Shown piece after piece: positions 45,237 through 60,957 of a DNA stretch of 64,000 bases. The notes beneath the pieces were generated by a model. It saw nothing but the letters and a program-made list of their open reading frames with translations, was not told the origin of the DNA and did no database searches. This stretch comes from Cantharellus purpuraceus. Its lineage: Eukaryota > Basidiomycota > Agaricomycetes > Cantharellales > Hydnaceae. Position 1 is the stretch's first letter. Each line of letters opens with the position of its first letter. A program made the position numbers and the translations under genes. The stretch spans positions 372,001 to 436,000 of the forward strand of contig JALBUN010000049.1 in assembly GCA_025174535.1 (NCBI GenBank). The letters run 5' to 3'.

Positions 45237-46658
45237 TGTATGGGAACTGGTTTTCCCTTAAAAGATCTTGTTTAAAGTCCCAAAACTGTACAATTCCGCT
45301 TGATGGCCTTAAAATATCAGCATATATCTGCTGCTTTCTCTTGATTCAGGGCCATTCAAATATTCTCTATTTTTTCATATTTTTTCGGGAATTTTCCATG
45401 CAGAAATGAGTCTACAAACTTATTGTTCTGCTGGGCAAAGTTTTGGGACCCACATGGACCCACAATCCTTCGCAGATGTCAGCAGCCCCAAAGTCAGCCG
45501 GAGTCACCCGGACAACTGACTCATTTTCGATCACATGACTCATTTCAATCTCCGACTCAATCTGGTCACCACTGCCAGTAAATGCTCAATATCTTCGCCA
45601 CCACTGCACCTCCTGACTCCATTTTCGGTGGAGAGTTCAATAGAAGCTGTGCCTACCCATAGCTGTGCTAATCAGCCTGGGAAACGAAGTATTGACCGAG
45701 TTATTTGAGTAATGGTGACTCATGCTATGACTCCTTCCATGACTCATACCATGACTCCTGTGATTACTCATACTATGACTCCTGCTCTGAGTCACACTAT
45801 GACTCCATCCATGACTCATGCCATGAGTCAGAGCAAATCCAAGCAGCTCATTGGCTAGGAAACTTCCACTCCTTTCTCACATATTCCACTAGCTTCCGGT
45901 GGTTTCCATCTATTAATAGGTAGAAGTTTCCAGTAGTATCAGTCAGCTCCTGTAAATACAATATAAAAGGAGCCCATTCTGCCTCTGAAATAAATAACCA
46001 TTTCTACCCCATCATTTGCACATCAGTGTGACTAGAGTGACATACAGTGTCATCCTCTATATCTCAGTAACTGTTGATTGTCCAGTTCAAGGGTCGCTTA
46101 CAGTTGTGTAACTGTATTCGATTGCACTTGAAGTAGTGATTGTCCTGCTTTGGGCGTGAGTGTAGTATCTACCTCACGTGACTACGAATCTACAGGGTGA
46201 GATTGTCTGTCGATAGTCCTGCCATTAGTGCTCTTGTTTAAGTTACTAGTGTGTACTGCCTTTGCAGAGCATTAGAATCTTGAACTCGTGTGAAGCAGTT
46301 GCTAGACTACTTCACACATTGCTGTTACCCGCTTCAGAGTGTCACTGGTTGGACGGTTGGATTCATCCACCTACTTCCTCTAGCCTCTAAGTGCATTCCC
46401 CTCTTTTTGGAATATCTGGACCCCTAAGCGTCTGTGAACTCTAGACTCTGGAAGTCTTATTCATTCCCTACTGCTAAGAAATGTATTACTTTTCTGTGTA
46501 TCGTCTGCATTGACCATTACAACGGATTGTAACCAAACGTTAAATTGTTTCTGGAGTTGTGCTGCAGTAGGATTTGATATTCTTCTCAGCTGTTCATTCA
46601 CGGAATTGTGGTGATTTAGAGTTTGCCCTAACACCATAATTTTGCGGGTTCCAAAACA
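45237..46658 (+). mobile_element. LTR family A-II (A11) with chimeric flanks
   Basis: 1,422 bp, TGTATGGGAACT to TTCCAAAACA. Left flank GTTCA, right flank ATATA. The bZIP-site array is at 45716-45830 (ten units). Partner of A10 in the inversion. Confidence 0.9.
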
Positions 46659-46829
46659 ATATAAGCTGGTGATTGGTGGAAAAGGTCACTTTACCTGGGC
46701 AAAATTGGAGCTGCAAGGACAAAACGGCCTTGAGGGTTTCACCAATGCAGATGGGAGTACACAGGAGCACCGGCGTGCAATCTCGGGATATGTATTCTCG
46801 ATCGACAGTGGCGCTGTGTCCTGGAGTTC
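46659..46829 (+). pseudogene. Copia E RNase H, N-terminal part
   Basis: KLVIGGKGHFTWAKLELQGQ, EGFTNADGSTQEHRRAISGY and VFSIDSGAVSWSS on the plus strand, interrupted by the gypsy insertion. It continues without loss at 54611. Confidence 0.85.
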
Positions 46830-47383
46830 TGTTATGACTATATTCATTAACGCCCAGATCCCTGTCCGATCCCCTCAGATCCCCACACATATGAAATCTA
46901 TACTCCATTTGGAAACCGCTACGTCTCCATTTACCTGTCCGATTGTCACCGCCGATTGTCACCGCCGATTGTCACCGCCGATTCCGCCCATCCGTCTCCG
47001 GTTCCAATTGATGCATCAGCATCACCATAGGAACCCAGACATCCGTCCCCATCAGACTCGGACATACTCACGTAAGGCCGTCGGCCTTGGAGACCCATCA
47101 CCAGAGTAATTATTATTAGATTTCGAATATGTATTTAGGTTGCCCGACTGGGGACTTCATTCCCCAGTTTGAATATCAAATCACGCCTAGCTCCTAAGTC
47201 CGATCCTAACTCTCTAAGTCATACTCCATCTCCGAAATCTCGGACACTGGTATTAGTGAGGGTGCAGCACATAAGCTGAAGCCAAGTCTGTTCCGACCCC
47301 CACGACGTACTCCGACCCCAACCCAACCTCCGACCCAACCTCCGATCCAATCTCTGACCCCCAATTGGACCTAGTGCGTAACA
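46830..47383 (+). repeat. 5' LTR (family B) of the gypsy element
   Basis: 554 bp, TGTTATGAC to GTGCGTAACA. GATTGTCACCGCC is tandemly triplicated at 46941-46979; other copies have one. AAGGCCG/CGGCCTT and the stem ACTGGGGA/TCCCCAGT (loop CTTCAT, about 47144-47165) are conserved palindromes in the family. Confidence 0.92.
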
Positions 47384-47415
47384 GTATATTCGAACTGCCA
47401 TACTCACTCCTACCA

Positions 47416-48527
47416 ATGCCATGATCCACCACCAATTCTGAACATGCACGAATCGTCGAGGTGCCCGCCCCCAGCATTGACACCATCCCCGAGGTCGTCG
47501 AGGAACCGACAGACCACATAGAGGCCATCAATGAAGAAGACGACACCCCACCCTCTCCAAATCTGGCGCAAGCCATCTCCCTGCTTGCTAGCAGCATCTG
47601 TAACCCACAAGCCCCTAAGTCCCGGACCAAGGTCCAAGAACCTGACCCATTCGATGGCTCCAATCCACGTAAACTCCAGCCGTTCTTGGTGCAATGCCAG
47701 TTGAATTTCCGCAACTGCCCCAACGCATTCACATCCGATCGGGCGAAGGTCACCTTCGCCATGTCCTATCTCAAAGGCACCGCACTGGACTACTTCGAAC
47801 CAGCGCTCATGGACGACTCCGATGATGGTCAGAGGACTACTCCGACTTCATCTCCGAACTTCGGACCAATTTTGGTCCGTACAACCCCGAGGCCGATGCC
47901 GAGAATGAACTTGATTGACTTCAGATGAAGGAAAATCACAAAATCGCAAAATACATTGTGAGTTTCCAGCAGCTAGCTCTGAAAGTCCAATGGGGCAACG
48001 CTGCACTCCAACGCCAATTTTACGTCAGACTCCCATCCCGCATCAAGGACGAGATATCACGCGTTGGTAAGCCAGATACTTTGGCTACCCTCCGCAAGCT
48101 CGCCCAATCCATCGATGCCCATTATTGGGAACGTCAATCCAAGGTCTCCCGCGAAAATTCGGCCAACAACAAATCGGACAAATCATCGGACAAGACACCA
48201 AAGTCCAACAAGGGGTCCGATAAGCGGGCCACCGCCAACTCAGGCCAGAAGTCAAACACTGGTAATGCTGCCACTTCTGGTTCCGGTCAGAACAACTCCG
48301 GCACCAGCAATAACTCCAGAGCTCGCAAGAGTACTCCGGACCTCTCCACCAAGCTGGGGAAGGACGGGAAACTTACCCAGCAGGAACGCCAGCGCCGCAT
48401 GGACAACAACCTCTGTCTGTTCTGCGGAAAGCCTGGTCACCAAGCCAAGGATTACAACAAGGCAACCTCATCTGCAGCAAAGGCAAAGGGCCGCACCGCC
48501 AACGCCACGACGGACCAAAAAAAATAG
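47416..48527 (+). pseudogene. Gypsy Gag (capsid and zinc knuckle)
   Basis: The likely start ATG at 47416 is followed two codons later by TGA; the 27.5-kb gypsy copy shows the same start without that stop. Capsid: VQEPDPFDGSNPRKLQPFL, then VTFAMSYLKGTALDYFEPAL. A frameshift near 47840 and a stop near 47922 follow, then YIVSFQQLALKVQWGNAALQ and VRLPSRIKDEI. A Ser/Asn/Lys-rich linker leads to the knuckle CLFCGKPGHQAKDYNK, whose last Cys is Tyr, so the C-X2-C-X4-H-X4-C finger is broken. Confidence 0.82.
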
Positions 48528-48535
48528 TAAGCAGT

Positions 48536-51500
48536 CCTATAGCCTCCGTACAGGCTGAGGGCTGCGTTGGTACTCCCCGTACGACAAACGAGGTCCGCCT
48601 GAATGCATCCACTCGTTCCCACTCCAACTCCCTCACCCTCCTCATCTACTCTGACTCCATTCCCAATACCACTATTCAAGCATTAATTGACTCTGGTTCT
48701 ACTCACTGTTTCCTCGATTCCTCTTTTTCTGATTTACATAAACTCCATACATACACCATAACTCCGATACCACTCCGATTATTTGACGGCACTACTAATG
48801 CTGTTATTTCATGAGCTATAGATCTGTCTATCCGTTTTTCTGTTGGAGAAATCCAGAACCTTACATTCTATGTTACTCCGCTTGACTCCAGCTGTTCTGT
48901 GGTTCTCGGACATAACTGGCTCACCCGCTACAATCCGTTGATTGACTGGGTATTGGGCCATATCACATTCCGTTCTCCAGCACAGGCTGTGTCATCCCCG
49001 ACGTCACCAGCAACTATAGGTGCAAAATTATCTTCTGCCTCTGCTGACTCCGCTCCGATAGATACTCCGTCTACCCCTCCGTTTATATCGATGGTGGACG
49101 CTATGGTCTTCACCAGACTAAGCAAGCTGGACAGTTCTCACACATTCCAGGTCCACCTCTCCGATCCGATATTCCTCGCTGCTTGTTCCGCCCGATCCAC
49201 TCCACCGGCCTCTCTATGGTTCCCAAGGAGTATCATGAGTTCGCCGACGTGTTCAGCAAGTCTAAAGCCGACTCCCTAGCAGAACACCGACCATATGATC
49301 TCAAGATTGAACTGGATGACAACTCCACCCCTCCACTTGGCCCTATCTACTCGCTATCACAAAAAGAGCTACTGGCTCTCCAAACATTCATAGATGAGAA
49401 CTATAGATGAGAACTTGGCCACAGGCTTCATCCACCCATCCCTATCTCCTCATGGAGCTCTGGTCCTATTTGTCTGCAAAAAAGACAGATCACTCCATCT
49501 ATGTGTCGACTTCCGTGGACTCAACAAGATCATCAAGAAAGACCAATACCTGATACCCCGCACCGCGGACCTACTCGAGAGTCCTCGAAAGGCTAAGATC
49601 TACTCCAAAATAGATCTCCGACATGCCTACCATCTAGTCCGTATCCAAGAAGGCGATGAATGGAAAATGACCTTCCGCACACGACATGGATCTTTCAAGT
49701 GGTGCGTCATGCCCTTTGGACTAACCAATGCTCCGGCTGCCTTCCAGAGGTTCATGAATGATACCTTTGCTGACCTCCTCGATGTGACCGTCCTCATTTA
49801 CTTAGACGACATTTTGGTATATTCGGACAACGAAGAAGAACATCGGACACATGTTCGAGAGGTACTCCAACGTCTCCAAAAACATGGCCTCTTCGCCCAC
49901 GCTGACAAATGCAAATTCCACTCCAACTCGGTCAAATACCTAGGCTATATCCTCTCCCCAGCAGGATTGACAATGTCCGATGACAAAATCAAAGCCATAC
50001 AGGAATGGCCAGAACCCCAGAAAGTCAAGGACGTACAGTCCTTCCTAGGGTTCGCCAACTTCTACCGCCGCTTTATTCACGGCTACTCCTATATCACTGT
50101 TCCGCTCACCCGACTCACTAGGAAGGGTATCCAATGGAATTTCACTGACGAATGTAGACAGAGTTTTGAGACCTTGAAAAAGGCCTTTACTTCCACTCCA
50201 ATACTGACTCATTGAGTTCCAGACGTTCCCATCCTATTAGAGACCGACGCCTCCAACTATGCACTTGCCACGATCCTGTCCATCATCTCTCCGGACGACG
50301 GACAAGTCCACCTGATCGCTTTTCACTCGCATACATTTATGCCCCCCGAACTGAACTATGACATCCATGACAAAGAGCTCCTTGCCATATATGAAGCCTT
50401 CCGGATATGGAGACACTACCTTGAGGGTCCCTCCGATCCGGTGGACGTCATAACTGACCACAAGAACTTGGAATACTTCTCCACAACAAAACTGCTCACC
50501 CGGAGACAGGTCCGATGGTCCGAATACCTATCTCAGTTCAATCTCATTCTCCGTTTCCGTCCAGGTCGACTTGGAGCAAAGCCCGATGCATTAACTAGAC
50601 GCTGGGACGTCTACCCTAAAGAGGGGAATAGCGACTATGCCACTGTAAACCCACACAACTTTCATCCTGTGTTCACTAATGAGCAGCTGGCATTGTCCCT
50701 ACGAGCATCCACCCTCATGACTCCCACCCTCCGAGCTGTCACCATTATGGACATCAACCAACTCCACTCCGACATCCGCTCATCACTCCGATCTGATCCT
50801 GTTGCGGTTCAACACTTGGACAACCCTTCCGATCCAAAATGGTCACTTGACCCTGAAGGGCACCTCTGACACAATGACTGGATATATGTCCCCGATGCCA
50901 ACGGCCTCCGACTCCAAATTTTGCAGTATTATCATGATCACCCAATCTCTGGCCACTTCGGGCAAAATTGCACACAAGGATTAATCCAACGAGACTATGT
51001 ATGGCCAAAAATGCGGGAATAGATTCAACACTACTGTAACTCCTGTACCACGTGTACGCGCTCAAAATTGCAAAGGCACAAACCCTACGGAACGCTTAAG
51101 CAACTTCCGATCCCGAAGCAACCATGGAACTCCATCTCCATGGATTTCATAGAGAAGCTCCCCCCATCGCTTGGATATGACACCATACTCGTGATTGTCG
51201 ACAGGTTCACCAAACAGTCACTATTCATTCCGACGCATGACACCATCACCTCCGCCTCACTAGCTAAATTGTTCGTTCTCCACATATTCTCTAAACATGG
51301 AGTCCCATCGCATGTCACGTCCAATCGGGGCTTGGAGTTCGTGTCCTCCTTCTTCCGTACATTAGGAAAGGCTCTCGACATGAAGCTTCATTTCACCTCC
51401 GGATACCACCCTGAAGGAGACGGACAAACGGAACAAATGAATCAGTCCCTGGAACAATATCTCTGAATTTATTGTAACTATCAATAAGACAACTGGGCTG

Positions 51501-52219
51501 ATCTACTTCTGATCACAGAGTTTGCCTACAACAATGCTCCAAACGCGACTACTGGCATCTCTCCGTTCTTTGCTAATAAAGGCTACCATCCAAACATCTC
51601 CGTCCACCCCGAGAAAGAACTTGCCTCCACCAAAGCCCACCAATTTGTAACCGACCTCGATCAACTACACCAACATCTCCGAGAAACCATCTCCGATGCC
51701 CAGAAACAATATCAAGTCTCCGCAGACCAACGCCGCATTCCAGCTCTGGACCTGCAAATTGGAGACAAAGCATTCGTTAAGGCTGAACACTTCCGGACCA
51801 CCCGTCCATCAAAGAAACTCTCCGAGAAATACTTAGGTCCTTATGAGGTCATTGCTCGCGCGGGCAGCAGGTCTTTCACCCTCCGCCTCCCAGACCACTT
51901 CCAAGCAGTTCATCCGGTCTTCCATATATCAATGCTTGAACCCGCTACCACGAACAAGATCTCCGGTTGCACGCAACCTCCACCTCCCCCGATCATCATC
52001 GAAGGAGACAATGAATATGAGATCTCGGAGATCCTGGACTCGAAGATCGACTGTCAATACAAGTGCAAGCTCCAGTACTTAGTCAAATGGACTGGATACG
52101 AAGGCACCAATGAAGAATCCTCATGGATTTCCGTGTCCAAACTCGATCACACATCTGAATCCGTCTCCGACTTTCACTCCGCTTATCCAGACAAACCTGG
52201 CCCCCTTATGAATCTTTAA
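48536..52219 (+). pseudogene. Gypsy Pol: protease, RT, RNase H, integrase, chromodomain
   Basis: Protease: ALIDSGSTHCFLD at about 48685 and [14 protein letters not shown] at 48895. RT: GALVLFVCKKDRSLHLCVDF near 49455 and VLIYLDDILVYS near 49795 (catalytic YLDD intact). RNase H: ETDASNYALATIL at 50240 and DHKNLEYFS. Integrase: HDHPISGHFGQN with CNSCTTC, SMDFIEKLPPS (first Asp), VTSNRGLEF, where Asn replaces the usual second Asp, and EQMNQSLEQYL. The chromodomain at 52013-52200 contains YLVKWTGYEGTNEESSW. Stops at about 50214, 50868, 51018, 51464 and 51485 break the frame. Confidence 0.9.
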
Positions 52220-52366
52220 GTTCGATTACTAATGCTAATTCTATTATTTTGCATCATCATTTTATTACAAGTCAAGGGAAATTACATGCCTGCCCAAAAG
52301 CTCCGAAGGAATCACTCCACCTCATTTTTCTCCGTTCCAAAATTTATAATCATTTTCATTCTTATT

Positions 52367-54042
52367 TTATACATCGCGTTTCCTTTTTCCCTTTCCCTTA
52401 TCTACCTCAGGCTCCGTCTCCGACTCCTCATCACTCTCTACATCCAACACCCAATCTTTCTCATCTCCCATGTCCGAATCCTCGTCCAACGGGGCCATGA
52501 ACTTCCGCAACCAACATAACTCAGCTGTCCGACGACCCTCCAGAACCTCCTTCCGTTTCATCGTCCTCACCAAGTCTACTAACAACCCCTCCATCCGCCG
52601 AAGGTGCTCCGACTGCAGGTTAACCAGCCGGATAAGCTGGCCCACGGTGCTATTGGGCACCGAAACGCGCCCCGTACCTGCACCGGTCGTCGCCCCTTCC
52701 AATCTGACACCGCTACCCCTGGCTGCCACAGCACCCGTCTCCGTCCACCTCTTTTTGGTCGGACGACCCTCCGATTCCTTCTCTGCCCCTCCTTGTACCA
52801 CTAGTCGGGGCTTGATGCTCCGACTCTGGGGATTGAACTTCCCATCAATCCTACACCCTCCTTTCCGACCCTGACAACGATCGCAGGACTGAAGTTGGCG
52901 AGTTGGGCTGGTAGGCCACACGCACTCCACACCCGCATCACGACATAAGTCACAAGTTACACCGGGTCCGCCAAATGGCTCCGTTGGAGCCAGAGCCTTG
53001 GGTGGTCTGCCCCTTCTCGCTGTGGCCTCCAAGTGTTCCCTCTCCTCCTCCTTGTCCTGCTGTTCTGCTGCCGCCTTCTCCATCTCGCGCTTGCAAAGCT
53101 GGATCGCCGACCTCGCGACACGCAGCTCCTTCTTACGGGTCGCCAACACACGACTCTCCGCCTTGCACCATATGACCCTCCGGTCCGCCTCTCGCCTCTC
53201 CGTATCAGCACTCGGGTACGCCTTCAATGAAAAGACCGCGACATTGAGATTCTTCTTGGTGGTAGCGGCATAGAGCTCCACTCTTTTGTGAGCCCTGCAG
53301 CTACCCAAGCCATCTCCTTGTAGGAATTCGAAGTGGGATTTGGCTCCGCATCCGTCCCAACATCCACGCCCGCCTTGGGCTCCGCATTTGCATCGAGATC
53401 CACATTGGCATTGGGATCCGCCTCCACCTCCACCCTCTCCGTCTCTGCCGCATCATCTTCCTCAGCTGCCCCCAACTCAAATAGGGGCCATGCCCGCGGA
53501 TGTAACAGCGAGTCCTCCGCAGTGACAGTCCTCGAACGAGTTGTCTCCGTCCATGTAACGGAGATGATGGCGACTTCTGGGGTCCCTGGCTGTATTGGCA
53601 CACTCGGACTTCCTGGGTGGCTGGTTCCCCCTGCCCCGGTCACCTCCTCCTCTACCTCCATGGCGGCCTCTAACTCGTGCACCTGCTCCTCCACTTCTTT
53701 CAGTCTTGCAGCCTCCATCGCTGCCGCAAGTTCCTTCACCATGCAGGCCCTCTCGACCTTCGCTTCCTCCTCTTTCCTTCTCCGTTCTGTTTTTGCCGCC
53801 TCTTTCCACCGCTGCTCTTCCTCCTCCTTCCGTCTCCGTTCCGCCTCCTCCTCCTCCTTCCGTCTCCGTTCCGCCTCCTCCTCCTCCTTCCGTTTCCATT
53901 CCACCTCCTCCTCCTCCTTCCATCTCCGTTCTGCTTCCTCCTCCTCTTTCCGTTTCCGCTCCTCTTCCTCTTCCTTCCGTTGGGCCAAGAGCAACTGCTC
54001 AAGCTCGGCCACGCTCATGCTTGCCAAAGGGTTTGACATCAT
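52367..54042 (-). pseudogene. Antisense module: coiled coil, AT-hook-like, Zn2Cys6-spaced protein
   Basis: Encoded opposite to gag-pol between chromodomain and 3' LTR. It begins MMSNPLASMSVAELEQLLLA at 54042. Next is a long Glu/Lys/Arg coiled coil of nine-residue repeats (about residues 25-130), an acidic Pro/Thr-rich middle, a conserved LYAATTKKNL helix, RRGRPPKA (AT-hook-like), then C-X2-C-X6-C-X12-C-X2-C-X6-C (CDLCRDAGVEC ... CDRCQGRKGGC). It ends in a leucine-rich helix and an acidic tail with KGKGKRKRDV. The cysteine spacing equals that of fungal Gal4-type Zn2Cys6 domains. A 4-nt loss near 53290, relative to the copy at 56334-58057, shifts the frame, so this copy reads as two frames. About 558 codons in total. 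Function unknown. Confidence 0.7.
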
Positions 54043-54072
54043 TGAGGATAAGACCTCAATCATGCCCCTCCT

Positions 54073-54080
54073 TTTATATG
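54073..54080 (-). promoter_or_regulatory. TATA box for the antisense module
   Basis: CATATAAAAGGAGGG in minus sense lies about 30 bp before the ATG at 54042 and is conserved at 56296-56310 in the second copy. This indicates that the antisense frame has its own promoter inside the element, next to the 3' LTR. Confidence 0.5.
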
Positions 54081-54180
54081 TCTCCAGACCCCCAGTATAA
54101 CTCTGACCGCGCCCAATCATCTCACCTATTCAATCCACGGACATGAGGCCTCAGGGGCTCAGCCTTAAATGGAGAGATAC

Positions 54181-54605
54181 TGTTATGACTATATTCATTA
54201 ATGACCAGATCCCCATCCGATCCCCTCAGATCCCCACGCATATGAAATCTATACTCCATTTGGAAACCGCTACATCTCCATTTACCTGTCCAATTGTCAC
54301 CGCCGATTCCGCCCATCCGTCTCCGGTTCCAATTGATGCATCAGCATCACCATAGGAACCCGGACATCCGTCCCCATCAGACTCAGACATACTCATGTAA
54401 GGCCATTGGCCTTGGAGACCCATCACTGGAGTAATTATTATTAGATTTCAAATATGTATTTAAGTTGCCCGAGGGCGCAGCACATAAGCTGCCAAGTCCG
54501 TTCCGACCCCCACGACGTACTCCGACACCAACCCAACCTCCGACCCAACCTCCAACCTAACCTCCAATCCAATCTCCGACCCCCAATCGGACCTAGTGCG
54601 TAACA
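54181..54605 (+). repeat. 3' LTR (family B) of the gypsy element
   Basis: 425 bp, TGTTATGAC to GTGCGTAACA. It lacks about 100 bp around the conserved hairpin found in the 5' LTR, a later deletion. The purine-rich AAATGGAGAGA at 54167-54177 is the likely polypurine tract. Confidence 0.9.
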
Positions 54606-54977
54606 AGTTCAAAGAAGCAGTCAATTGTCACGTTGTCTACCACTGAAGCGGAATATGTGGCCTCTATGCATGCTGCTGCAAAGGAAGCCCTATGGATCTG
54701 GATGTTCCTATCCGACATCATGTGTCCGCTCGAACAACTGACCACGATGTGCTGTGATAGTCAGTCAGCAATTGTGATATCCAAGGACAACCGCTACCAC
54801 TCACGGACGAAACATATTGATATCTGTTACCATTTCATTCGCAACATGGTACAGAGGGATCTCATATCCGTTCACTACTGCCCTACGAGTGACATGGTGG
54901 CCGACATGCTCACAAAGCCCCTTGCGGTGCCCATGCTCAACCACTTGGCCGGACTTGTAGGAGTGGGTCAGGCTTAA
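54606..54977 (+). pseudogene. Copia E RNase H, C-terminal part
   Basis: Continues the frame from 46829: STTEAEYVASMHAAAKEALW, CCDSQSAIVISKDNRYHSRT, KHIDICYHFIRNMV and SDMVADMLTKPLAVPM, ending at a stop codon at 54975-54977. DSQSA holds a catalytic Asp and ADMLTK is the usual copia C-terminus. TAAGGGGGAG at 54975-54984 is the polypurine tract before the 3' LTR. Confidence 0.88.
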
Positions 54978-54984
54978 GGGGGAG

Positions 54985-55249
54985 TGTTGGGAATGTGGCC
55001 ATTATGTAAGCCCATACAATGGTCCGTGCACTCAGCGCCTGCCACCTGGCAGGATATATAAATGCGTAGAAGTTTTCACTCCACCTCAGTGAAGGAATAT
55101 CACTGAGGTGGTACATAGTCATTTTACTTATGATAGATTAGTATTAACATACACTAGTTATCACACTAGGTAATTAGTTCAATGTATACTCAGTGAAGGA
55201 ATATCACTGAGGTGTTATCACACTAGTCCATTGCGCATTAGTTGCTACA
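54985..55249 (+). repeat. 3' LTR of copia E
   Basis: 265 bp, TGTTGGGAATGT to TTGCTACA, with TATA-like GATATATAAATG at about 55053. Followed by the TSD AGTAG. Confidence 0.92.
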
Positions 55250-55494
55250 AGTAGTATATATTAATATTAGTATATACAGCATTCCCTTAAGGAGTGCTGC
55301 TTTTCTTGATAGATATATGCACCCTATGGGTGCATATGTATAGTTATTATATAATCAAGTGGGCCCAAGTATACATGTGGATCCACATGTAGTTAGAGTA
55401 ACTTAGATTTTACCACACCACTGTTGCACATAGCACAACCAATATAACTTGGTTGAGTTCTGTGTTGGTGTGAAATAACTCTAACCTTACACAG

Positions 55495-55722
55495 TCACTT
55501 CAGTTCAAGGTCCAAAACATCCTTCACAAACTTTTTGGCCACTGGGGAGAACCAGGCCTTCAGGTCATGATACTGCTCAACATCCCCATGCACAGCCACA
55601 TAGAACCCCTCAATCCCTGTCCTCTCTATTGCTGCAGACCACCAAAATACAATTGTCAATGCCACATTATGATATATTGCAGTGTATGTACCTCCTGATT
55701 CATTGCTGCAAATGTTCATCAA
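55495..55722 (-). CDS. Hypothetical protein fragment near repeat P
   Basis: A 75-codon frame with ESGGTYTAIYHNVALTIVFW, VAVHGDVEQYHDLKAWFSPV and AKKFVKDVLDLEL. It may be an exon of a transposon-associated protein. I cannot name the family; no start context or splice sites are certain. Confidence 0.3.
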   Translation of the reverse strand: MMNICSNESGGTYTAIYHNVALTIVFWWSAAIERTGIEGFYVAVHGDVEQYHDLKAWFSPVAKKFVKDVLDLELK

Positions 55723-55835
55723 TGTTCCTTTGTGTTGCCTTTGGATTGGTGTGTTTTACTTTAGCACAATCCTCATGAAAGGCAGTAAGATCCTTTTGAA
55801 GCACCTTCCATTCAAATCTGCTGAGCTTTGCATAT

Positions 55836-55965
55836 GTAAGTATCCAAGGTGCTTACTTACTATAGTATATAGTTATATAGATAATTAATGTATGTGGCAT
55901 TCCTTTAAGGAATGCTGTCTTCTTGATAGATATATGCACCCATAGGGTGCATATGTATAGTTATT
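55836..55965. repeat. Palindrome-rich repeat P, copy 2
   Basis: 130 bp matching copy 1 with its three palindromes: GTAAGTATCC/GGTGCTTAC, GCATTCC/GGAATGC and ATATGCACCC/GGGTGCATAT. Compensating changes keep the second stem paired. No TSD or terminal repeat is evident. Confidence 0.65.
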
Positions 55966-56333
55966 GTTGATTATGGGGAGATAAGGGGCTAGGAGAGAGT
56001 GGGCAACTTAAATACATATTTGAAATCTAATAATAATTACTCCAGTGATGGGCCTCCAAGGCCGACGGCCTTACATGAGTATGTCCGAGTCCGATGGGGA
56101 TGGATGTCTGGGTTCCTATGGTGATGCTGATGCATCAATTGGAACTGGAGACAGATGGGTGGAATCGGTGGTGACAATTGGACAGGTAAATGGAGACGTA
56201 GCGGTTTCCAAATGGAGTATAGATTTCATATGTGTGGGGATCTGAGTGCATCGGATGGGGATCTGGGCGTTAATGAATATAGTCATAACAGGAGACATAT
56301 AAAAGGAGGGCCATGGTTGAGGTCTTATCCTCA

Positions 56334-58057
56334 ATGATGTCAAATCCTTTGGCAAACATGAGTGTGGCTGAGCTTGAGCAGTTGCTCCTGGCCTGATGGA
56401 AGGAAGAGGAAGAGGAGCGGAGATGGAAGGAGGAGGAGGCAGAACAGAGATGGAAGGAGGAGGAGGCAGAACAGAGATGGAAGGAGGAGGAGGCAGAACA
56501 GAGATGGAAGGAGGAGGAGGCAGAACAGAGATGGAAGGAGGAGGAGGCAGAACAGAGATGGAAGGAGGAGGTGGTGGTGGAACGGAGATGGAAGGAGGAG
56601 GAGGAATGGAGAAGGAGGAGGTGGAACAGAGACAGAAGGAGGAGGAGGAGTGGAGATGGAAGGAGGAAGAAGCGAAAGCCAAGTGAGCCCACAGGGTCAG
56701 GGAGCTTGCAGCTGCGATGGAGGCCACGAGACTGAAGGAAGTGGAAGAGCAGGTGCATGAGCTAGAAGCTGCCATGGAGGTAGAGGAGGAGGTGACCGGG
56801 GCAGGGGCGACTAGTCACTCAGGGAGTCTGAGTGTGCCAATACAGGTGGGAACCCCTGAGGTCACCATTATCTCAATTACATGGATGGAGTCAACCCGTC
56901 TGACAACTGTCCCTCCAGTGGACTCACTGTTATGTCTGTGGTCATGGCCGTTATTTGCAGTGGGTGTGGCTGAGGAGGATGACACGGTGGAGGCAGAGAG
57001 GGCTGAAGTAGAAGTGGATCCTGATGCCAATATGGAGCTCAATGCAAATGCAGGCAGGTGTGGATGTTGGGATGGATATGGAGCCAGATCCCACCTCAAA
57101 TTGTTACAAGGAGGTGGCTTGGGTAGCTGCAGTTGAAGCTTGCAAAAGGGCAGAGCTCTATGCTGCTACCACCAAGAAAAACCTTGAGTTGCGATCTTTT
57201 CATTGAAGGTGCACCCGAGTGCTGATATGGAGAAGCAGGAGGCAGATTGGAGGGTCATATGGTGCAAGGCGGAGAATCACATATTGGCGACTCATAAGAA
57301 GGAGCTGCACATTGCTAGGTCAGCGATCCAGATCCACAAGCGTGAGATGGAGAAGGCGGTGGCAGAATAGCAGGACAAGGAGGGGGAGAGGGAGCACTTG
57401 GAGGCCACATCGAGAAGGAGCGGACCACCCAAGGCTCTGGCCCCAACAGAGCCATTTGGCAGGCCCGGTGTAATTTGCGTGTCGTGATGCAGGCATGGAG
57501 TGTGTATGGCCCACTGGCCCAACTCACCACCTTCAGTCCTGCAATTGTTGTCAGGGTCGGAAAGGAGGGTGTAGGATCAATGGAAGGTCTGATCCCTGAA
57601 GTTGTAGTGTCAAGCCCTCACTAGTGGTACAAGGAGGGGCAGAGAAAGAGTCAGAAGGTCATCTGACCAAAAGCAGCAGATGGAGATGGGTGCTGTGGCA
57701 GCTGGAGGTAGTGGTGTCGGATTGGAAGGAGCAACGACCGGCGCAGGTATGGGGTGCGTCTCTGCACCCAACAGTACCGTGGGCCAGCTTATCCAGCTGG
57801 TTAACCTGCAGTCAGAGCACCTCTGGCAGACTGAGGGGTTGTTAGTGGAGTTGGTGAAGACAATGAAACGGAAGGAGGTTCGCAAGGGTCGGCAGACTGC
57901 TGAGTTGCATTGGCTGCGGAAGTTCATGGCCCCCTTGGATGAGGATTCAGACATGGGGGATGAGAAAGATTGGGTGTCAGATGTAGAGAGTGATGATGAG
58001 TCAGAGATGGAGCCTGAGGTAGACAAGGGGAAGGGAAAAAGGAAATGCAATGTATAA
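56334..58057 (+). pseudogene. Antisense module, copy 2
   Basis: Same product as at 52367-54042. It starts MMSNPLANMSVAELEQLLLA, with a TATA box (TATAAAAG, 56298-56305) 28 bp upstream. A TGA follows LLLA. The coiled coil is drawn out by a 27-bp tandem repeat (56436-56575, unit AEQRWKEEE, about five copies). KEVAWVAAVEACKRAELYAA is uninterrupted here. Stops occur after RSFH and within the Zn2Cys6 region, whose cysteines are partly lost. The C-terminus (VGQLIQLVNLQSEHLWQTEG to KGKGKRKCNV) is open and well kept. Confidence 0.7.
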
Positions 58058-58216
58058 CTTGAAAAATGAAAATGAAAATGATTGTAATATTTTGGAGCGG
58101 AGAGAAATGGGGTGGAGTGAGATTCCTTCCGAGTTTGGGGTAGACTTGTAATTTCCTTTGTGACTTTGTAATGAAATGATCATGCAAAATAATATAATTA
58201 GTATCAGTAATGGAAC

Positions 58217-59831
58217 TTAAAGATTCATAAGAGGGCCAGGTTTGTCTGGATAAACAGAGTGAAAATCAGAGATGGATTTGGATGCATGATTGAGTTTGGA
58301 CACGGAGATCCATGAAGACTCTTCATTGGTGCCTTCATATCCAGTCCATGTGACTAGGTACTGGAGCTTGCACTTGTATTGATGATTGATCTTCGAGTCC
58401 AGGATCTCAGATATCTCATATTCATTATCTCCTTCGATGATGATTGGAGGTGGAGGTTGCATGTGACTGTTTGTAGTAGCAGGTTCAAGCATTGATATAT
58501 GGAAGACTGGGTGAAGTGCTCGGAAGTGGTCCGGGAGGCGGAGGGTGAAGGACCTGCTGCCTGTGCGAGCAATGACCTCATAAGGACCTAAGTATTTCTT
58601 GGAGAGTTTCTTCAATGGACAGGTGGTCCGGAAGTGTTTGGCCTTAACAAATGCTTTGTCTCTGATTTGCAGGTTGGAGCCAGAATGCAGCATCAGTCCG
58701 CAAAGACTTGGTATTGTTTCTGAGCATTGGAGATGGTTTCTTGGAGATGTTGGTGTAGTTGGTCGAGGTCAGTTACAAATTGGCAGGCTTTGGTGGAGGC
58801 AGGTTCCTTCTCAGGGTGGATGGAGATGTTTGGATGGTAGCCTTTATTAGCAAAGAACGGAGAGATGCCAGTAGTTGCGTTTGGAGCGTTGTTGTAGGCA
58901 AACTCTGTGATCAGAAGTAGATCAGCCCAGTTGTCTTGTTGATAGTTACAATAGACTCGGAGATATTGTCCCAGGGACTGATTCATTCATTCCATTTGTC
59001 TGTCTCCTTCAGGATGGTATCCAGAGGTGAAATGAAGCTTCATGTTGAGAGCCTTTCCTAATGTGCGGAAGAAGGAGGAGATGAACTCTGAGCCCCAATT
59101 GGATGTGACATGCGATGGGACTCCATGTTTAGAGAACACATGGAGAATGAACAACTTAGCTAGTGAGGTGGAGGTGATGGTGTCATGCATCAGAATGAAT
59201 AGTGACTGTTTAGTGAACCTGTCGACAATCATGAGTATGGTGTCATATCTGAGCGATGGGGGGAGCTTCTCTATGAAATCCATGGAGATGGAGCTCCATG
59301 GTTGCTCTGGGACCAGAAGTTGCTTAAGTGTTCCATAGGGTTTGTGCCTTTGTGATTTTGAGCGCATACAGGTGGTACAAGAGTTACAGTAGTGTTGAAT
59401 GTACTCTTGCATTTTTGGCCATACATAGTCTCGTTGGATTAACCCTTGTGTGCGATTTTGCCCAAAATGGCTGGAGATCGGGTGATCATGGTAATACTGC
59501 AAAACTCAGAGTTGGAGTCCATTGACATCAGGGACGTATATCCAGTCATTGTGTCGGAAGTGTCCTTCGGGGTCAAGTGACCACTTTGGATCAGAAGGGT
59601 AGTCCAAGTGTTTAATTGCAACAGGATCAGATCGGAGAGATGAGTGGATGTTGGAGTGGAGTTGGTCGATATCCATAATGGTGACAGCTCAGAGGGTGGG
59701 AGTTGTGAGGGTGGATGCCTGTAGGGATGATGCCAGCTGCTCGTTAGTGAACAGAGGATGAAAGTTGTGTGGGTTTACAGTGGCATAGTTGCTACTCCCC
59801 TCTTTAGGGTAGACGTCCCAGCATCTAGTTA
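58217..59831 (-). pseudogene. Gypsy copy 2 Pol: RNase H end, integrase, chromodomain
   Basis: Minus-strand frames: integrase zinc finger and core at 59502-58987 (HDHPISSHFGQN, CNSCTTC, SMDFIEKLPPS, VTSNWGSEF again with Asn), MNQSLGQYLRVYCNYQQDNW at 58986-58693, then the chromodomain at 58693-58217 with YLVTWTGYEGTNEESSW. Fewer stops than the complete element. Confidence 0.85.
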
Positions 59832-60957
59832 ATGCATGAGATCCTGGACTCGAAGATCGATCATCGATACAAGTGCAAGCTCCAGTACTTAGTCAAATGG
59901 ACTGGATACAAAGGCACCGATGAAGAGTCTTCATGGATCTCCGCGTCTGAACTTGATCATGCATCCGAATCCATCTCCAACTTTCACTCTGCTTATCCAG
60001 ACAAACCTGGCCCTCTTATGAATCTTTAAGTTTGATTACTAATGCTAATTCTATTGTTTCACATCATCATTTTATTACAAGTCACAAGGGAAATTACCAG
60101 CCTAAAATACTCCGAAGGAATATCACTCCGACTCATTTTTCTCTGCTCCAAAATTTATAATCATTTTCATTTTTTATTTTTATACATCACGTTTCCTTTT
60201 TCCCTTCCCCTTATCTACCTCAGGCTCCGTCTCCGACTCATCATCACTCTCCACATCCAACACTCAATCTTTCTCATCCCCCATGTCCAAATCCTCGTCC
60301 AAAGGGGCCATGAACTTCCACAACCAACGTAACTCGGCTGTCCGCTGACCCTCCAGAACCTCCTTCCGTTTCATCGTCTTCACCAAGTCCACTAGCAACC
60401 CCTCCGTCCGCCGGAGGTGCTCCGACTGAAGGTTAACCAGCCAGATAAGCTGGCCCACGGTACTATTGGGTGCAGAGACGTGCCCCGTACCTGCACCAGT
60501 CATTGCCCCTTCCAATCCGACACCGCTACCCCCGGCTGCCACAGCACCTGTCTCCGTCCGCCGCTTTCTGGTCGGACGACCTTCCGATTCTTTCTCTGCC
60601 CCTCCTTGTACCACTAGTTGGGGCTTGACGCTCCAACTCCAGGGATCAAACTTTCCATCGATCCTACACCCTCCTTTCCGACCCCGACAACGATCGCAGG
60701 ACCGAAGGCGGCAAGTTGGGCTGGTAGGCCACATGCACTCCATGCCTGCATCATGACAAGTCGCAAGTTACGCCGGGCCCGCCAAATGGCTCCACTGGAG
60801 CCAGAGCCTTGGGTGGTCTGCCCCTTCTCGCTGCAGCCTCCAAGTGTTCCCTCTCCTCCTCTGTTATGACTATATTCATTAACATCCAGATCCCCATCCG
60901 ATCCACCCAGATCCCTGCGCATATGAAATCTATACTCCATTTGGAAACCACTATGTA
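59832..60957 (+). mobile_element. Gypsy copy 3, chromodomain plus antisense module plus LTR start
   Basis: The plus-oriented chromodomain (59832-60029, YLVKWTGYKGTDEESSW) begins mid-gene at the head-to-head junction. The antisense module is kept at 60866-60264 on the minus strand (RRGRPPKALAPVEP, CDRCRGRKGGC, NSTVGQLIWLVNLQSEHLRR). It is then cut and joined to the first 96 bp of LTR B at 60862-60957. Confidence 0.8.

Follow-up and report, generated by a model that had tools for sequence, protein, structure and literature searches.

The window analysed here, 64,000 nucleotides of the Cantharellus purpuraceus genome (G000:C49:372001-436000, contig JALBUN010000049.1, forward strand; G000 comprises 40 Mb in 50 contigs), holds a Ty3/Gypsy retrotransposon with long terminal repeats (LTRs), a chromodomain and, between the chromodomain and the 3′ LTR, an additional gene on the opposite strand (52367-54042). 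This antisense gene lies inside the element, and comparison of its copies shows it to be protein-coding and to have experienced purifying selection during the spread of the family. A preliminary description of the sequence had placed the gene at this position and interpreted it as a protein gene belonging to the element; the position was confirmed, and the interpretation is supported by selection, presence of the frame and its openness alike. Judged from the features of the predicted product, we lean towards an accessory gene for a nuclear DNA-binding protein that would tune the expression of the element itself.

Coding capacity and purifying selection

Sixty module loci were fetched from the genome, 40 of them places from a DNA search and 20 drawn from 79 further places matching the related protein P0001 (see below); most had been chosen for matching the antisense module. 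Together with the two further copies in the window they provided 62 sequences, which were compared over the non-repeat part of the gene in the columns of an open copy (L013). Because the copies decay strongly at CpG sites, transitions at sites after C or before G in any copy were dropped. Singleton variants were taken as mostly post-insertion decay and variants present in at least four copies as mostly inherited via active elements, an approach that separates inherited changes from decay in CpG-mutating repeats. In the antisense frame, shared variants comprised 18 non-synonymous (N) and 51 synonymous (S) changes vs 127:52 for singletons (Fisher p = 1.9e-10), a result that depends on the CpG-filtered variant set. 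Thus, the dN/dS-type check suggested beforehand came out in favour of a coding gene, the N/S ratio being much lower for shared variants than for singletons. By codon position 1, 2 and 3, the shared non-CpG variants numbered 12, 8 and 49, and those in the helical and six-cysteine (C6) segments 1, 1 and 17; the acidic linker was looser (6, 7 and 18). The integrase-chromodomain region in the sense frame, serving as positive control, gave 72 N : 47 S for singletons and 2:26 for shared variants.

Stop codons were counted in 61 copies and compared with an expectation in which the differences of each copy were redistributed by base and CpG context. The antisense frame contained 40 stops vs 147 expected (range 121-183, 300 shuffles), and the same shuffling applied to the integrase gave 49 seen vs 105 expected. 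Over the non-repeat part, the antisense frame is the sole open one of six, with 0.65 stops per copy and 29 of 62 copies open; four of the others carry 10 to 19 stops per copy. This openness might only be a shadow of base composition, as had been considered beforehand, or of a gene on the sense strand, and sense reading frames of up to about 300 residues do overlap the N-terminal half. However, the best sense frame, whose third positions coincide with those of the antisense frame, has 6.06 stops per copy, is open in none of the 62 copies and shows shared variants at 32 N : 36 S, which makes this explanation barely conceivable.

The element and its copies

The features of the element and of the module copies in the window are as follows.

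46825-46829 and 54606-54610: target duplication AGTTC, 5 bp, flanking a single insertion
46830-54605, plus strand: Ty3/Gypsy chromodomain LTR retrotransposon, from LTR alignment and flanks, with RVT_1 and Chromo domains
46830-47383, plus strand: 5′ LTR, TGTTATG...GTAACA, from LTR alignment; longer than the 3′ LTR via tandem duplication
49394-50215, plus strand: reverse transcriptase part of pol (Pfam RVT_1, 2.1e-39)
51932-52219, plus strand: chromodomain, end of pol (Pfam Chromo, 6.7e-07; 29.6 bits, cut-off 25.1)
52367-54042, minus strand: antisense gene, between chromodomain and 3′ LTR; frameshifted in the overlap 53224-53308
52853-52954, minus strand: six-cysteine motif C-x2-C-x6-C-x12-C-x2-C-x6-C
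52994-53017, minus strand: RRGRPPKA, AT-hook-like in this copy
54070-54078, minus strand: TATA box TATAAAAGG, between the gene and the 3′ LTR
54181-54605, plus strand: 3′ LTR, from LTR alignment
56291-58057, plus strand: second module copy, diverged and frame-broken, its element in opposite orientation
60180-60861, minus strand: third module copy, more than half of the gene gone (N-terminal side); an LTR abuts at 60861

Reverse transcriptase, a C-terminal chromodomain, TG..CA LTRs and the 5-bp target duplication place the element in the Ty3/Gypsy chromodomain class. As both LTRs and the AGTTC duplication bracket 46830-54605, the antisense module lies inside one insertion. The LTR pair differs at 22 of 421 aligned sites, 19 of the differences being transitions (the alignment starts 8 bases 5′ of the 5′ LTR). 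The 5′ LTR exceeds its partner by 129 bases, in part through a 26-base insertion that represents two CCGATTGTCACCG units. Judged by eye, the flanks (46642-46829 and 54611-54977) resemble a Copia-like element interrupted in its RNase H region (...VSWSS | STTEAEYVA...), which would be the host of the insertion.

The coding module of about 558 codons described earlier exists as an uninterrupted single frame, running from MSNP to a basic C-terminus over 538-649 codons, in 10 of the 60 fetched copies; the window's first copy is frameshifted and consists of two overlapping frames (53224-54120 and 52367-53308). An intron or a programmed frameshift at 53224-53308 was ruled out, since other copies are open in one frame without either. 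The variation in length falls largely within an N-terminal Glu/Arg/Lys repeat, where alignments double up. The order chromodomain, antisense module, LTR was found at 52 of the 60 loci; within the fetched stretch, three of the remaining loci have no chromodomain match and five no LTR match, and no locus has another order. All three copies previously reported in the window were recovered, with extents of about 56291-58057 and 60180-60861 for the second and third, although the third lacks most of the gene. Loss of the N-terminal part with an LTR directly against the remainder was seen there and at L045 and L047, at a different point each time. Two further arrangements may be mentioned: on one contig L004 and L006 are separated by about 7.4 kb and have near-identical match layouts, perhaps in tandem, and a 144-base piece of the module start sits between two LTR copies at L050:3158-4158.

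Genome-wide, P0001 matches at least 113 places and the chromodomain at least 150. Among the matches listed, the module lies within 1.5 kb and on the opposite strand at 62 of 150 chromodomain places. Of the 88 chromodomain places without a listed module seven were read, and all seven carry it at least in part (L062 matches over 232 bases only, and L063-L065 are interrupted). The notion that some related elements lack the module was therefore not upheld, and no chromodomain copy without it was found among the copies read, 81 of the 88 places being unread. The frame expected in related copies was thus found in those examined, most of them fetched for matching the module. In being present in most copies and conserved as a protein, the gene corresponds to an antisense accessory open reading frame (ORF).

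The family is probably under methylation-like attack, as indicated by the heavy CpG decay of its copies: in L001-L060, CpG retention is 0.51-0.59 across LTR, module and integrase alike, and 0.39-0.43 in the gap between chromodomain and module (5 sites).

Predicted protein, promoter and relatives

All six cysteines of the C6 motif are present in 59 of 61 copies, and at the six Cys codons the commonest residue has a mean share of 0.995 vs 0.898 over the segment. The spacing reported in the preliminary description was reproduced, and with its two C-x2-C-x6-C halves the motif has the six cysteines of the Zn_clus family (PF00172). The assignment to a Gal4-type domain held for the spacing only; the Zn_clus profile scored below the curated Pfam cut-off wherever a match was reported. 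Of 12 whole C6 segments, seven gave such a sub-threshold match and five none, while half segments searched alone were not matched (0 of 4) and among the relatives 2 of 19 were (best E 9.7). In four of the seven matched segments the best stretch aligns to the opposite profile half, with the second half of P0003 and P0005 on positions 1-14 and the first half of P0002 and of the window copy on 20-38; P0004, P0006 and P0009 follow the normal order. The domain is plausibly a Zn2Cys6-like DNA-binding domain, and a half-swapped zinc cluster is a possibility. Relative to fungal Zn(II)2Cys6 factors, it shares the two halves, one of them of the form CDRCxxRKxxC, and differs in its 12-residue linker, in the sub-threshold score and in the opposite-half alignments.

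An AT-hook, proposed on account of RRGRPPKA, was rejected as a family feature: RGRP occurs in 13 of 62 copies vs RGGP in 45, and a check of 34 proteins gave GRP matches but no RGRP. At this place, the copies' codons GGCGGA, GGTGGA and GGCAGA fit remnants of a decayed CpG, so that RGRP is most simply, and probably, a product of CpG decay. An AlphaFold2 model made with 19 sequences contains helices at residues 12-77 and 199-249, mostly with a predicted local distance difference test score (pLDDT) >80, and is of low confidence over the C6 region. Coiled coils, Cys cluster and basic tail together suggest a nuclear, oligomeric DNA-binding protein.

The TATA box was noted earlier as a conserved element about 30 bp before the ATG. 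It lies at 54078-54070, 39 nt before the ATG of MSNP (54039), and is retained in all but one of the 51 fully covering copies (50 of 51; 52 were aligned). Its position between gene and LTR suggests a putative promoter belonging to the gene itself.

Outside this genome, the initial relative was P0001, a JGI-sourced protein with 38% identity (E 6.8e-33), and a profile built from P0001 and the window sequence retrieved 33 JGI proteins including P0001, each on a contig of 1 to 4.5 kb. These relatives are likely metagenomic and fungal. Contig sizes of 3806, 2325, 2296 and 1445 recur among them with different protein pieces, as decayed repeats would show. The exact cysteine spacing is found in 13 of the 33, in keeping with the earlier statement that diverged copies keep the protein motifs, here at 38% identity; P0012 spans the region with its first Cys substituted, and most of the other 19 lack all or part of it. 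N-termini of relatives start like that of P0003, MSSSVENMSIADIEKLL, the comparable start in the window being MSNPLASMSMAELEQLL. P0005 and P0020 have a frame that continues upstream, with YK 13 codons before the start methionine, i.e. at the position of TATAAA here (39 nt); at a guess, these YK codons spell TATA. P0009, P0016, P0026 and P0027 are named "uncharacterized coiled-coil protein SlyX" at source, a bacterial name that probably stems from the C-terminal coiled coil.

Proposed function and alternatives

In the proposed mechanism, an antisense transcript would be initiated from the internal TATA box, close to the inner edge of the 3′ LTR, and run against gag-pol. Its predicted product would carry a charged coiled coil at the N-terminus, followed by an acidic linker, a long helix and the six-cysteine zinc cluster, with a second coiled coil and then a basic tail on the C-terminal side. 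The protein would oligomerise, enter the nucleus and bind DNA, the likeliest target being regulatory sequence of the element itself, and this binding would tune how the sense genome is transcribed, as has been proposed for GENE23 in plants. We infer such autoregulation as the highest-rated role, above targeting, nuclear entry and escape from silencing. A precedent is HBZ of human T-cell leukaemia virus type 1 (HTLV-1), a bZIP protein whose RNAs, both spliced and unspliced, start in the LTR, and an antisense product that tunes sense transcription. HBZ resembles the gene described here as an antisense-encoded, nuclear coiled-coil protein (nuclear location being proposed for the latter). Conversely, the fungal gene needs no intron and has an internal TATA box and a Cys cluster. 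A more specific version, in which a half-swapped Zn2Cys6 autoregulator would parallel HBZ through independent evolution and represent a new fungal zinc-cluster topology, in a lineage comprising this genome and the (probably environmental) JGI relatives, is considered unlikely.

Several observations weigh against the autoregulator or against the coding signal beneath it. The antisense protein is constrained, yet less so than the integrase. Without the CpG filter the contrast between variant classes shrinks (shared 208 N : 184 S vs singletons 184:96), because recurrent CpG changes mimic shared variants. Distinct indels divisible by three make up 24 of 44 in the antisense frame vs 10 of 50 in LTR and chromodomain-module gap (5 of 22 and 5 of 28, respectively; p = 6e-4), but the integrase, though coding, has just 8 of 36; the indel test was therefore given little weight and dropped as proof of coding. 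In the N-terminal repeat 100 of 222 indels are divisible by three, from overlapping alignments that prevent judgement. With regard to DNA binding, the best Zn_clus score on excised segments was 16.9 bits (a 59-residue segment) vs a cut-off of 21, and the Pfam search returned no Zn_clus match for the window ORF and other longer proteins. Shared variants (in at least four copies) occupy 2 of 136 sites in 54045-54180, 6 of 292 in the LTR and 12 of 147 in the post-chromodomain gap; conservation of the TATA region thus about equals that of the LTR, and these counts show no special conservation of the promoter. Finally, CGG triplets in the LTR were tried as binding sites and treated as null: CpG sites in CCG/CGG context are enriched there (21 of 25 vs 128 of 217 in module and integrase; p = 0.016, post hoc), yet these triplets are kept no better (0.57) than others (0.51-0.59).

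Rather than acting on transcription, the protein might act after it, binding nucleic acid as a partner of the integration complex in nuclear entry or, with the chromodomain, in site choice. The gene adjoins the chromodomain, its product has a basic tail and helices of coiled-coil type, and the data fit both roles alike; antisense transcription from an own promoter would, however, uncouple the protein from gag-pol, and an integration partner appears improbable on balance. The CpG decay described above would give a protein that counters host silencing, by methylation or RNA interference (RNAi), something to act upon, but no Pfam or NCBIfam family above cut-off points to such a role, which is regarded as quite doubtful. 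That the antisense RNA is the functional product, for instance by forming double strands with the sense genome, has been raised for plants as well (PMC7264820, in excerpt). Codon-by-codon selection on the protein and similarity that persists at 38% identity speak against it, rendering an RNA function very unlikely. Equally hard to sustain is the view that the element carries a passenger gene, captured recently from the host. Zinc clusters are common in fungal host proteins, but the module is at least partly present in the copies examined, including all seven chromodomain loci without a listed module; the JGI relatives show the divergence and frequent fragmentation expected of repeats, and all matches to P0001, P0002 and P0003 that were read in this genome, a subset of those listed, belong to this element family.

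The gene can be set beside published cases, taken here from excerpts of the papers cited. Descriptions of LTR elements with antisense accessory genes go back to the 1990s, and the functions of these genes are given as unknown (PMC7264820). In plants they include gene23 of Grande and ORFs of RIRE2, Retand and PvRetro13; gene23 has a promoter upstream and a nuclear product, an antisense promoter is present in the HTLV 3′ LTR, and the plant proteins are given there as without clear similarity to others except PvRetro13 ORF2, with an SMC domain (PMC7264820). The plant ORFs share position, strand and presence in most copies with the gene described here, whereas the fungal gene has a documented C6 motif and documented selection at the codon level. 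In Botrytis cinerea, Boty-like elements have an extra antisense gene, brtn, between pol and 3′ LTR (PMC7264820), one with a CHROMO domain (PMC4227169), and BcGypsy1 carries it too (PMC8365987); the gene is traced to Zhao et al. 2011 (cited in PMC7264820, PMC8365987 and PMC4227169). Compared by description rather than by BRTN sequence, Boty likewise is a fungal LTR retrotransposon with a CHROMO domain and an antisense gene between pol and 3′ LTR. No basidiomycete element with an antisense six-cysteine gene was found in the titles and abstracts listed by searches of open-licence literature. Antisense genes at the same place are thus on record in plants and in a chromodomain element of Botrytis, and the present one stands out by its candidate DNA-binding motif together with clear signs of selection. 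Codon-level selection shows the antisense accessory gene to be a working protein gene of its element, and with a candidate DNA-binding motif, a TATA box shared by the copies and a family of >100 places in one genome the function of such genes becomes directly testable.

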